NCBI RefSeq assembly: GCF_038051995.1
Contig: NZ_CP150290.1
Span: 1,785,501-1,849,500 of the forward strand
Source of the DNA: Paenibacillus sp. FSL H8-0537
Lineage (GTDB): Bacteria; Bacillota; Bacilli; Paenibacillales; Paenibacillaceae
DNA length: 64,000 nucleotides
Direction of reading: 5' to 3'
Position 1 is the first letter of the stretch. Every line of letters begins with the position of its first letter. This document shows positions 15,526-59,376 of this stretch, in pieces. The notes beneath the pieces were generated by a model, which saw only the letters and a program-made list of their open reading frames with translations, had not been told where the DNA came from and ran no database searches. The position numbers were made by a program, and so were the translations under genes.

Positions 15526-16290
15526 ATGGCTGATACGACTACTGCTACAAAAACCGTTAAGTTCATCATTACCCGTCAGGATGGACCGGAGTCTGCGTCT
15601 TACAAAGAGGAATTTGAAATTCCGTATCGCCCGAATATGAACGTTATCAGCGGACTTATGGAAATTCAGCGTAATCCGACGATGGCAGATGGCGGCAATA
15701 CAGCTCCAGTATGCTGGGAATCCAACTGTCTGGAAGAAGTTTGCGGCGCCTGCTCCATGGTCATTAACGGCAAGCCGCGCCAAGCGTGCAGCGCACTGAT
15801 CGATCAGTTGGAGCAGCCGGTACGTCTGGAGCCGATGCGCACTTTCCCGGTCGTCCGTGACCTTGTTATCAATCGCGAGCGTATGTTTAACGCCCTCAAA
15901 CGCGTTAAGGCATGGATTCCGATCGATGGCACTTATGATCTCGGTCCTGGCCCGCGCCTGGCAGAATCGAAGCGCCAATGGGCTTACGAGCTGTCCAAGT
16001 GCATGACGTGCGGCGTATGTCTTGAAGCTTGCCCGAACGTCAACGATCGCAATAGCTTTGTTGGCCCAGCGGCCATTTCTCAGGTTCGCTTGTTCAACGT
16101 TCATCCTACGGGAGAAATGAACAAGGAAGAGCGTCTGGAAGCATTGATGGAGGATGGCGGCATCGAGGGCTGCGGAAACTCGCAAAACTGTGTGCGCTCT
16201 TGTCCGAAAGGCATTCCGCTTACGACGTCGATTGCGGCAATCAACAAAGATACAACGAAGCATCTGTTCAAAAAATGGCTTGGATTTTAA
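15526..16290 (+). CDS. sdhB: Succinate dehydrogenase iron-sulfur subunit
   Basis: SdhB carries electrons from the flavin to the membrane hemes through three iron-sulfur clusters. The 2Fe-2S cysteines are in CWESNCLEEVCGAC with a fourth cysteine at PRQAC, the 4Fe-4S set is CMTCGVCLEACP, and the 3Fe-4S set is CGNSQNCVRSCPKGIPL. The 254-residue length is typical. GAAAGGAG overlaps the end of sdhA, so translation is probably coupled. A terminator follows within 10 nt of the stop. Confidence 0.97.
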   Translation: MADTTTATKTVKFIITRQDGPESASYKEEFEIPYRPNMNVISGLMEIQRNPTMADGGNTAPVCWESNCLEEVCGACSMVINGKPRQACSALIDQLEQPVRLEPMRTFPVVRDLVINRERMFNALKRVKAWIPIDGTYDLGPGPRLAESKRQWAYELSKCMTCGVCLEACPNVNDRNSFVGPAAISQVRLFNVHPTGEMNKEERLEALMEDGGIEGCGNSQNCVRSCPKGIPLTTSIAAINKDTTKHLFKKWLGF

Positions 16291-16296
16291 ATATAA

Positions 16297-16329
16297 GGTC
16301 TTCCACCTGAGCGGTGGAAGGCTTTTTTC
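16297..16329 (+). terminator. Terminator of sdhCAB
   Basis: CTTCCACC (16300-16307) pairs with GGTGGAAG (16313-16320), followed by a run of T. Confidence 0.9.
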
Positions 16330-16331
16330 TT

Positions 16332-16429
16332 AAAATATAGGAAAGGATATGATTTTGCGATCCTTTCCTATATTTCTCGGACTGAAACGCGCCGCACCGC
16401 CAAAGGACGGCGACAGCCGTTTCACCTTG
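16332..16429 (+). repeat. Two-hairpin intergenic repeat, copy 1
   Basis: The first module is a perfect 16-bp hairpin (16333-16348 with 16360-16375). The second is GC-rich, starting CTCGGACTGAAACGCGCCG and ending in GGCGACAGCCGTTTCACC. Related copies lie at 27304-27402 (same strand) and 59275-59376 (opposite strand), with a fragment at 4239-4254. The copies sit only between genes. Confidence 0.85.
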
Positions 16430-23708: not shown

Positions 23709-23750
23709 ATGCTTATAAGCAGCAATTCCATAATTGAATAGAACTACTTT

Positions 23751-23855
23751 CTTATCAAGAGCAGGCGGAGGGACTAGCCCGATGAAGCCCGGCAACCGGC
23801 GTAAGCACGGTGCTAATTCTTGCGGAGACATTTCGATGTTTCTGAGAGATGAGAG
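23751..23855 (+). promoter_or_regulatory. SAM-I (S-box) riboswitch
   Basis: The sequence contains the conserved S-box blocks CTTATCAAGAGCAGGCGGAG, GGACTAGCCCGATGAAGCCC, GGCAACC and GCTAATTC, closing with TGAGAGATGAG, which pairs with the 5' end. S-adenosylmethionine binding favours the terminator just downstream and switches off metA-metI-metC. Confidence 0.97.
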
Positions 23856-26068: not shown

Positions 26069-27241
26069 ATGAGCGACAGACATAACAAAGAGGAATACGC
26101 CAAGCGTCATTTTGCAACGAAATTGCTTCATTTCGAAGGATCATTTGATGAGCAGACGGGTGCATCCAGCACGCCGATTTTCCAGGCATCTACGTTCCAT
26201 CAAAGCGATTTGTCCCAAAATCCGCCTTACGATTACAGCCGCTCCGGCAACCCGACAAGGCAGGCGCTGGAGGACCAAATTGCGCTGCTGGAGGGCGGTA
26301 CGCGGGGCTTTGCCTTTGCATCCGGCATGGCTGCCATTTCAACGACGTTCCTGCTGCTGTCGGCGGGCGACCATGTTATTGTGACTGAGGATGTGTACGG
26401 AGGTACATACCGCCTGCTGACGACGGTGCTTAATCGTCTTGGCATGGAGACGACGTTCGTCGATATGACGGATTTTGAAGCCGTTAAAGCTGCATATAAA
26501 GAGAATACGAAAGCGGTATTTATCGAGACGCCTTCCAACCCGACGCTGAAAATTACCAATATTTCGCAGGTGGCTTCGTGGGCGAAGGAGCATAATCTGC
26601 TGACGATTTTGGACAATACGTTTATGACGCCTTATTATCAGCGTCCGCTTGAGCTTGGTATAGACATTGTTCTGCACAGCGCGACCAAGTTTCTGAGCGG
26701 TCACAGCGACGTGCTCGCTGGTCTTGCTGTCACGGCGGATGAAGAGCTGGGACGCAGGCTGTATCAGCTGCAAAATGGCCTCGGCGCCGTGCTGAGTGCC
26801 CATGAATGCTGGCTGCTTATGCGCGGCATAAAGACGCTGCAAGCGCGTATGGAGCATAGCGAGCGCAGCGCGCGCAAGCTGGCGGAGTGGCTGAATGAAC
26901 ATCCAGAAGTGACGAAGGTTTATTATCCTGGCCTTGCGGATCATCCGGGCCGTGAGGTGCATGAGCAGCAATGCTCCGCCTATGGCGCGGTGGTATCCTT
27001 TGACGTGGGCAGCCGAGAACGGGCGAAAGCGATGCTTGGCCGCGTGAAGCTCCCGCTTGTAGCGGTCAGCCTTGGCGGCGTAGAGAGCATCCTATCGTAT
27101 CCAGCGATGATGTCGCATGCAGCAATGCCGAAGGAAGTCCGACATGAACGTGGTATTACAGATGGCCTCGTACGCTATTCGGTAGGCCTTGAGCATATTG
27201 AAGATTTGCTAGCAGATTTGGATCAGGCTTTGCGCGGCTAA
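26069..27241 (+). CDS. metC: Cystathionine beta-lyase MetC
   Basis: MetC splits cystathionine into homocysteine, pyruvate and ammonia. The 390-residue PLP protein has the Schiff-base lysine in VLHSATKFLSGHSD, the cofactor motif ASGMAAISTTF and ESILSYPAMMSHAAMP near the end. It is a clear paralogue of the preceding MetI. The start is ATG 26069, with GGGGAGG at 26053-26059, only 4 nt after the metI stop; the longer open frame overlaps metI and is not needed. It is the last gene of the met operon, followed by a terminator and a copy of the intergenic repeat. Confidence 0.92.
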   Translation: MSDRHNKEEYAKRHFATKLLHFEGSFDEQTGASSTPIFQASTFHQSDLSQNPPYDYSRSGNPTRQALEDQIALLEGGTRGFAFASGMAAISTTFLLLSAGDHVIVTEDVYGGTYRLLTTVLNRLGMETTFVDMTDFEAVKAAYKENTKAVFIETPSNPTLKITNISQVASWAKEHNLLTILDNTFMTPYYQRPLELGIDIVLHSATKFLSGHSDVLAGLAVTADEELGRRLYQLQNGLGAVLSAHECWLLMRGIKTLQARMEHSERSARKLAEWLNEHPEVTKVYYPGLADHPGREVHEQQCSAYGAVVSFDVGSRERAKAMLGRVKLPLVAVSLGGVESILSYPAMMSHAAMPKEVRHERGITDGLVRYSVGLEHIEDLLADLDQALRG

Positions 27242-27257: not shown

Positions 27258-27300
27258 AGGAAAAGACGGCTGTCATTGCTGACAAGCCGTGTTTTTCCTT
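27258..27300 (+). terminator. Terminator of the met operon
   Basis: GGAAAAGACGGCT pairs with AGCCGTGTTTTTCC, with a small bulge and an inner GTCA/TGAC pairing, and runs into T residues. Confidence 0.8.
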
Positions 27301-27303
27301 TTT

Positions 27304-27402
27304 AAAATATAGGAAAGGATATGATGTTCCCATCCTTTCTCTATATTTCTCGGAATGAAACGCGCCGCGCCGTCAGAGGACGGCGAAAGCCGTTTCACCT
27401 TG
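27304..27402 (+). repeat. Two-hairpin intergenic repeat, copy 2
   Basis: Stem 1 pairs 27305-27320 with 27332-27348, with a one-nucleotide bulge. Stem 2 contains a perfect CGCCGTC-AGAG-GACGGCG hairpin or, alternatively, CGGC-GAAA-GCCG with a GNRA loop. Apart from small changes it matches copy 1. Confidence 0.85.
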
Positions 27403-28936: not shown

Positions 28937-28954
28937 CGATTTAATCGAATATGA

Positions 28955-29096
28955 ATCTTCAGGGCAGGGTGCAATTCCCTACCGGCGGTAAGGATGCGTT
29001 CGGAGCATCCAGAGCCCGCGACTCCTGGCTGCTTGCAGCCGGGACTGATCTGGTGAGAATCCAGAGCCGACGGTATAGTCCGGACGGGAGAAGATC
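28955..29096 (+). promoter_or_regulatory. FMN riboswitch (RFN element)
   Basis: All conserved blocks are present: ATCTTCAGGGCAGGGTG, AATTCCCTACCGGCGGTAAG, AGCCCGCGA, GACTGATCTGGTGAGAATCC and GAGCCGACGGTATAGTC, closing with GGGAGAAGAT. FMN binding should reduce expression of the next gene. Confidence 0.97.
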
Positions 29097-29107
29097 AGAA
29101 CCAGCTT

Positions 29108-59274: not shown

Positions 59275-59376
59275 CAAGGTGAAACGGCCGAAAGCCGTCC
59301 TCTGGCGGCGCGGCGCGTTTCGGTCCGAGAAATATAAGCCCATTTATAAGGGTAAAACTTATAAATGCTTATATTT
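59275..59376 (-). repeat. Two-hairpin intergenic repeat, copy 3
   Basis: Read on the minus strand, stem 1 pairs AAATATAAG and ATTTATAAG-type arms (59330-59350 with 59358-59376). Stem 2 begins CTCGGACCGAAACGCGCCG and ends GGCCGTTTCACCTTG. Only the outer AAATATA/TATATTT of stem 1 agrees with copies 1 and 2; the rest has changed on both sides so that pairing is kept. Confidence 0.82.

Follow-up and report, generated by a model that had tools for sequence, protein, structure and literature searches.

A short folded intergenic repeat of Paenibacillus, very probably a non-autonomous rolling-circle element of the IS91 family

The chromosome of Paenibacillus sp. FSL H8-0537 carries a folded repeat that is, in all likelihood, a non-autonomous rolling-circle element of the IS91 family and, as such, a bacterial counterpart of the short non-autonomous Helitrons. 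With a length of about 98 bp, the repeat cannot accommodate a transposase gene. Its two ends match those of Y2 transposons of the IS91 family in Paenibacillaceae, and these transposons, too, are located behind the T-runs of terminators. Both termini are common to the element and to one group of these transposons (group 2 below; the likeness of the type A left end is only moderate), related autonomous IS91 elements encode an HUH-Y2 transposase with a zinc-binding domain, and the repeat inserts without target duplication and is without terminal inverted repeats.

Structure of the element in the analysed window

The window, that is, the whole stretch of 64,000 nucleotides that was analysed, contains three copies at the positions given by an earlier sequence-only reading, beginning with AAATATA at 16333 (+), 27305 (+) and 59376 (-). 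All three have CACCTTG as their 3' terminus, and all lie between ORFs, as that reading had also claimed. The element consists of an AT-rich hairpin 1 (AAATATA...TATATTT), a CTC linker and a GC-rich hairpin 2 ending in CACCTTG. Hairpin 1 is formed by a left end, for which there are two main types (A and B), and the inverted copy that follows it. Covariance model scores are 109.4 bits for copy 1, 108.4 for copy 2 and 104.5 for copy 3, with the three copies (L001, L012, L031) being among the 49 sequences from which the model was built. At gathering scores, Rfam gave no match over the copies in the window; its sole matches there are a SAM riboswitch (23749-23855) and an FMN riboswitch (28951-29099).

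Copy 1 (16333..16429, +) is a full element, matched by the covariance model, with a type A left end and a right end of the type called r1. Its hairpin 1 (16333..16375, +) is made of the left end and its own inverted copy (AAATATAGG...CCTATATTT), hairpin 2 (16379..16426, +) has the outer stem GG..TGAAACG / CGTTTCA CC, and the right end (16407..16429, +) is a hairpin, ACGGC-GACA-GCCGT, followed by the 9-nt tail TTCACCTTG. The last stem bases of this right-end hairpin overlap the outer stem of hairpin 2, and the two pairings compete there. The target of copy 1 is an intrinsic-terminator-like hairpin (CTTCCACC/GGTGGAAG) with its T-run (16300..16331, +), downstream of an ORF of 254 aa (15526-16290). 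Copy 2 (27305..27402, +), also full and of types A and r1, has the right-end hairpin ACGGC-GAAA-GCCGT (27380-27393, +), and its target, the hairpin ACGGCTGTC/GACAAGCCGT with a T-run (27266..27304, +), stands behind a 410-aa ORF ending at 27241. Copy 3 (59275..59376, -) is a full element combining a type B left end, with hairpin 1 at 59330..59376 (-; AAATATAAGCATTTATAAG / CTTATAAATGGGCTTATATTT), and an r1 right end at 59275..59298 (-) in which the loop is TTTCG (ACGGC-TTTCG-GCCGT + TTCACCTTG). It is flanked by ORFs of 249 aa and 631 aa, and its left flank ends in GTTTGCTTG, with no clear terminator seen in that flank.

Abundance, distribution and modular ends

In the host genome, near-full matches number at least 51 for copy 1 (83-100% identity; best 40 of 244 candidate places scored) and at least 37 for copy 3 (best 40 of more than 240 scored). 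The pattern CGTTTCANCTTG, with at most one mismatch, matches the genome 384 times, compared with 116 for the reversed pattern. In 804 kb of the chromosome, 40 full copies were found (26 in 1-400000 and 14 in 1585501-1989500), which by extrapolation gives about 350 for the 7.006-Mb single-contig genome (G000). A covariance-model search of the genus, a check proposed with the sequence-only reading, gave matches in 40 of 51 genomes, at least 1,476 in all with the best 80 or fewer scored per genome. Overlapping matches of the HMM on opposite strands were removed as strand shadows (460 reduced to 247), and partial copies were excluded from the sets of 191 and 250 copies used below. An exact r1-type pattern found 53 stretches in the GTDB collection, every one titled Paenibacillus (P. 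algorifonticola, luteus, paridis, agaridevorans, endophyticus, sinopodophylli and others). Among 50 loci around IS91 genes, one copy lies in another genus of the family (G223, L329). A single plasmid record was matched (P. cellulosilyticus NZ_CP054613.1, 61% of the query covered), phages gave no match, and viral contigs gave none for one exact pattern.

The 5' and 3' modules of the element are interchangeable, since left ends of type A (GGAAAGGAT), type B (AAGnATTTATAAG) and other types are joined in many combinations to the right ends r1 (GTTTCACCTTG), r2 (GTTTACGCTTG) and r3 (GTTTTTGCTTG). Copies also stand head-to-tail in arrays that repeat every 97-99 bp. Of 191 full copies, 46 lie directly behind the right end of another element, and junctions of CCGTTTCACCTTG with AAATATA occur 27 times in the genome and 0 times in the reversed control. 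Near-identical tandem copies point to probable local expansion of these arrays. Some copies are 5'-truncated and without hairpin 1 (host 96110; L254 9462; L237 4453; L261 9472), three of these four being joined to a terminator-like T-run. A reading of such copies as a sign of copying from the 3' end was set aside, since deletion of the palindrome between TTT repeats fits equally well.

Empty and filled sites in related genomes

The element is mobile, with empty sites present in relatives. The comparison covered six sites and two relatives, G002 and G035, using alignments of host positions 1585501-1989500 with their G035 counterpart (mean identity 89%) and of 60 kb with G002 (93%). Among the cleanest cases is host position 1729298, where the site is empty in G035 (CACATTTTG^AGTGGC). 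The site at 1852050 is also empty in G035 (GGGCTTTTTTG^TATTTTG), the filled site having one extra T, and the site of copy 1 is empty in G002 (TTTTTTTATTTT^ATAATAATG), with its junction blurred by a few further base differences. Insertions are likewise found in the relatives: G002 carries a double head-to-tail insertion opposite host 1777566, where the host reads GTCCGTTTTG^TGTTAAAC, and G035 carries one opposite host 1793449 (CTCCTTTTTTT^C) and another opposite 1803001, with a less clean junction that has small extra differences. Less clean, too, is the case of host 1735606, where G035 is also without some 13 bp of flank. No target duplication was found at the six sites compared. TTG on both sides could mask a duplication of 3 bp; the left flanks vary (TTG, TTA, TTC, TTT), and the right end is a constant CTTG. 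A dispersed pair at host 1907396 and 4018201 is 99% identical, which marks a recent movement. Positions 1-400000 of G035 are not syntenic with 1-400000 of the host; a repetitive region of the host (146428-147524) matches G035 at about 130-134 kb in many registers.

Target sites

The element inserts either behind a T-run, which in some cases belongs to an intrinsic terminator, or after the CTTG end of another copy. Among the 145 insertions without another copy directly in front, 68% have at least six T in the last nine bases, compared with 1.65% of 2000 random sites, and the three bases before the insertion are mostly TT(A/G). Of these insertions, 20% (27% for type A and 10% for type B) have a strictly defined hairpin, scoring at least 20, just before the T-run; among control sites, the proportion is 4.1% of 1500 T-rich ones and 1.0% of the random ones. 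With the threshold at its loosest (12), insertions reach 44% (A 54%, B 32%) and T-rich and random sites 21% each, and the target hairpins of type B exceed T-rich controls about 1.5- to 2.4-fold. The right end of the element is CTTG and its left flank a T-run with, mostly, TTR, so that target and right end are alike in form: hairpin, T-rich tail and TTR. Because its right end resembles its target, copies would insert behind one another and form the head-to-tail arrays.

Ends shared with IS91-family transposons

Two groups of IS91 transposons in Paenibacillaceae bear on the ends of the element. The genome G032 holds seven near-identical copies of the first, whose transposase, P0001, matches NF033538 (279.9 bits, cut-off 125), PF04986 and PF14319. 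At their left junctions, a terminator hairpin with T-run (five copies) or the right end of another element (two copies) is followed by TTGTTTAGGAAATTATGC, and their right end is a hairpin plus TTTTGTTC. A search with P0001 through 394 genomes of the family was positive in 51, with many of the matches being broken fragments. Group 2, with a transposase 33% identical to P0001 (NF033538 324.1 bits, cut-off 125; PF04986, PF14319), lies in other genera (G343, G052, G392, G106), in G106 also head-to-tail; its left end is ACATTATAGAATTTATAAGTTTTG (L325) and its right end AAAGGACGCCGTCAGGCGTTTTTCTTA.

The left ends of three group 2 copies match type B at 20, 19 and 17 of 24 positions, levels reached by 0, 4 and 128 of 200,000 shuffles, respectively. 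Their right end agrees with r1 at 18 of 21 positions (0 of 200,000 shuffles), and a G035 element matches the group 2 right end at 25 of 27. For the P0001 type, the left end matches type A twice at 14 of 22 (232 and 940 of 200,000 shuffles), and the right end agrees with r1 at 2 of 21, which is no match. Type B is closely similar to the left end of one IS91 group and type A moderately similar to that of another. The strings used in these comparisons were chosen by eye, after they had been seen, so profiles were built from IS91 termini alone, using group 2 only (6 left and 3 right sequences). The left-end sequences were drawn from 13 IS91 loci by a pattern, outside which the altered left end of L306 falls. 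When these profiles were scanned over 2.4 million positions of host and G035 DNA containing 54 elements, matches within 3 bases of element 5' ends made up 7, 9, 12, 14 and 16 of the 10, 20, 30, 50 and 100 top-ranked places of the left profile. Matches within 3 bases of element 3' ends, that of copy 1 among them, made up 4, 13, 21, 25 and 31 of the same numbers for the right profile, with a chance expectation of 0.016 per 100. Places other than element ends account for 3 of the top 10 for the left profile and 6 for the right.

The IS91 transposons also share the target of the small elements. On visual inspection, each of the 15 IS91 copies whose left end can be recognised follows a hairpin with T-run or an element end; L292 and L306 are IS91 copies with altered left ends and no T-run junction. 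In G046, which is of the same genus as the host, a decayed IS91 with a group-2-like left end stands behind a T-run; relics were compared with P0001 only, and the group-2-like label of this one reflects its left end and an identity of 33% to P0001. In the G032 element, on which the IS91 left end was judged, that end is no palindrome. Descent by itself therefore does not account for hairpin 1, and the left-end palindrome with its covariation seems to be a feature of the small elements alone. G032 also holds another short family (L271, L273, L274, L284), about 316 bp long and with IS91 ends of the P0001 type (TTGTATAGGAAACTATGC...GGTGATTTTGTTC). Such relatives adjoin some G032 IS91 copies head-to-tail, and one stands elsewhere directly behind a CACCTTG end of the 98-bp family. 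A stretch like the left end of the 98-bp family (AAATATAGGAAAGTATAAG) follows one of the G032 IS91 copies.

An IS91 transposase was not found in the carrier genomes of the host (G000), G002, G008 and G035, although the 99% identical pair in the host marks a recent jump. PF04986 (Y2, IS91 family) is present in 8 of 51 genus genomes, and relics of IS91 transposases in several, and from such relatives and decayed relics we infer the mobiliser. A non-autonomous element can outlive its enzyme, so the absence of the transposase lowers the probability of IS91 membership without excluding it. In about 1.3 Mb of the 7.0-Mb host genome, no larger r1-ended (CACCTTG) copy around a transposase gene was seen, and a search for an autonomous element via orphan left and right ends in the sequence examined also showed none.

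Covariation and the folded shape

Both hairpins are predicted by RNAalifold. A statistical covariation test, another check proposed with the sequence-only reading, gave a score of 0.143 against 0.069 for shuffled data (reached in 0 of 500), with slid pairings scoring at most 0.046. Across 110 distinct copies, both partners have changed in 12 of the 21 consensus pairs, and standard pairs fill 95.6% of pair cells compared with 91.3% after shuffling, in an alignment that was fitted to the structure, with kinship left in, and in which the difference between types A and B supplies part of the covariation signal. The two arms of hairpin 1 also pair better with each other than with arms swapped between copies (duplex energies of own and swapped arms: type A -6.61/-6.26, type B -5.50/-4.12, other -5.95/-4.46). 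This advantage holds within each of the three left-end groups (0 of 2000 permutations each, kinship left in) for 221 of 250 copies, the 29 without a recognisable hairpin-1 end being excluded. Clear paired changes of the arms are ACGTATAGG/CTATACGT and, in L255, CGCAT/ATGCG. At least 206 of 250 copies have a small hairpin within hairpin 2, placed 9 nt from the end, this being the best of the spacings tried. It has five pairs and a 4-nt loop in 154 of the 250, and its stem is mostly ACGGC/GCCGT (143/250).

The sequence-only reading saw compensatory change in the contrast of copy 3 with copies 1 and 2 and took it to suggest selection on shape rather than simple copying. Stem 1 of copy 3 does pair as described (59330-59350 with 59358-59376), and selection on the folded shape is supported by the covariation and by own-arm pairing. 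The contrast itself, however, is mainly a switch between left-end types A and B and not a base-by-base compensation. Moreover, the repeat being a transposable element, the opposition of shape to copying fails, and its folded shape most likely serves its mobility. The same covarying stems could belong to a structured RNA or to a regulatory element resembling a terminator, retained because it acts on transcripts and spread only secondarily, which would also suit the intergenic position (3 of 54 elements lie within an ORF of at least 90 aa) and the terminator-like r3 right ends. However, presence and absence between relatives, tandem arrays, diverse neighbours, the lack of an Rfam match at gathering scores, and ends that match a transposon make this unlikely, and some copies stand behind an existing terminator, where little transcription should arrive.

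Proposed mechanism and other candidate mobilisers

If the repeat is a non-autonomous IS91-family element, a transposase of that family supplied in trans would nick the TTR^A junction on single-stranded DNA. The strand would then be peeled off from the left end, with hairpin 1 being origin-like, until peeling stops after the right-end hairpin and its 9-nt tail (CTTG^), and the freed strand would be rejoined behind another hairpin with a T-rich tail. Left and right modules could be reshuffled if an internal right end is read through. By analogy, hairpin 2 may carry a termination-type end (hairpin, 9 nt, CTTG); the roles of the two ends as origin and terminator we infer from strand logic, and, with respect to the target-adjacent end, the transposase gene may be oriented differently from that of classical IS91. 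A bolder reading, which we hold tentatively and at somewhat less than even weight, would see in these repeats 'mini-Helitrons' spread through the genus. The Y2 enzyme would read a hairpin, a T-rich tail of about 9 nt and TTR both as its own end and as its landing site, terminators would act as docking structures, and the doubled, covarying left-end palindrome would be a new folded single-strand origin absent from the parents.

Movement by an enzyme of the IS200/IS605 or RAYT type, in which Y1 (TnpA) moves a single strand via subterminal hairpins and cuts by a short target word, as for REP/REPIN, would explain several of the same features: two hairpins, no target duplication, and a short sequence word ahead of the left end and another at the right, much as in the IS200/IS605 architecture set out in parts of PMC6006769. 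Orientation is in line with it, since type A copies are mostly co-directional with replication (34 of 40 places, compared with 17 of 37 for type B; Fisher P = 0.0006), as counted among the copies listed, with base 1 as origin, half the genome as terminus, and arrays collapsed (A from 51 to 40; B unchanged at 37). A weak element match (28.7 bits) also lies at the broken Y1 locus of the host, on one side only (L062). Nevertheless, this explanation is quite improbable. Of 51 genus genomes, just 8 contain PF01797, and it is missing from the element-rich G035, G008, G026, G032, G046 and G048; the two Y1 genes of the host, one intact and the other broken, are not framed by a pair of element ends. 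Hairpin 1 begins at base 1, leaving no room for a 5' guide word (GTAG/GTGG for REP), the element ends match IS91 transposons instead, and G035, which has neither a Y1 transposase nor a reverse transcriptase, holds insertions absent from relatives.

That last observation weighs equally against a retro-type mechanism, in which a reverse transcriptase like that of group IIC introns would insert the element and which we consider very improbable. Such enzymes also prefer terminators, intron-like elements of G032 stand behind terminator hairpins at 5 of 5 junctions examined, and 5'-truncated copies of the repeat could be taken as its products, but they are explained as well by palindrome deletion. 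PF00078 is found in 28 of 51 genomes and is absent from the copy-rich G001, G008, G026 and G035; the ends of the element are not GTGCG... and match IS91, and the GTGYG start, domain V and reverse transcriptase of a group IIC intron are not the make-up of the element. The intron-like elements of G032 (L276, L277, L279, L280, L281), which are presumably of class IIC, start with GTGCGCCC and stand behind terminator hairpins like the IS91 members; the host itself has a 470-aa reverse transcriptase at about 6.917-6.919 Mb (L282 1366-2778, -; RVT_1 47 bits). An ordinary MITE of a DDE transposon, as short, gene-less and many copies might suggest, is almost certainly the wrong description, given the lack of a terminal inverted repeat (AAATATA against CACCTTG) and of target duplication, and it is contradicted by the empty sites. 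A Rep_1 protein of the pC194 type, whose nick site we take the junction CTTG^A to resemble, was rejected as mobiliser, being found in 1 of 51 genus genomes. The copy-rich G035 and G008 are without all four of Y1, reverse transcriptase, Rep_1 and Y2.

Relation to known systems

Members of the IS91 family (Y2 HUH; IS91, IS801) found in Paenibacillaceae are like the element in the sequence and spacing of their ends, and the family shares with it the lack of terminal inverted repeats and of target duplication. The CTTG of the right end (GTTC in the P0001 type) is the complement of the IS801 target words CAAG/GAAC, as given in parts of PMC3189936, where the IS801 transposase is also described as working in trans. 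Unlike IS91, the element is without a transposase, only about 98 bp long, palindromic at its left end and targeted to T-runs. The short forms of IS801 are, in the same parts of that paper, one-ended right-end fragments and not a separate high-copy family (PMC3189936). The sections of PMC9208149 consulted make no mention of IS91 near terminators.

Helitrons share with the element a 3' hairpin that precedes a CTRR-like end by about 10 nt; for Helraiser, parts of PMC4778049 give a hairpin 11 nt before a CTAG end and also some CTTG ends. The similarity is confined to this 3' hairpin and CTTG: the element is bacterial and, of the Helitron features (5' TC, 3' CTRR after a hairpin, A^T target), it has neither the 5' TC nor the A^T target. 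REP/REPIN sequences with RAYT are, like the element, short folded intergenic repeats relying on an HUH enzyme (PMC6006769, in part), but the element has no GTAG/GTGG before its hairpin and a Y1 gene is present in the small minority of genomes counted above. Group IIC introns have a landing place of the same kind, behind terminator hairpins, and differ in their RT gene, GTGCG... start and other ends. Finally, BOX, RUP, SPRITE and other MITE-like repeats are short and non-autonomous, cluster and insert into one another, according to parts of PMC10969869, and are likened here by description and not by sequence.

Significance

IS91 elements, one-ended IS801 fragments and Helitron derivatives are already known. 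A high-copy family of 98 bp that seeks T-runs and has a doubled left end is new as far as the open-access literature shows; no description of such an element was found there, most subscription journals being missing from it. Bacterial rolling-circle transposons are mainly IS91/ISCR elements able to carry neighbouring genes. If the IS91-type reading is true, they would also include a very short, high-copy, gene-less class comparable to the non-autonomous Helitrons. Terminus recognition and target choice could then be studied on naturally empty and filled sites, on arrays and on well over a thousand copies. Terminators may be shared landing sites for unrelated mobile elements, namely IS91 members, these elements and intron-like RT elements. 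Altogether, the IS91-type reading would account for intergenic repeats that number some hundreds in these Paenibacillus genomes.
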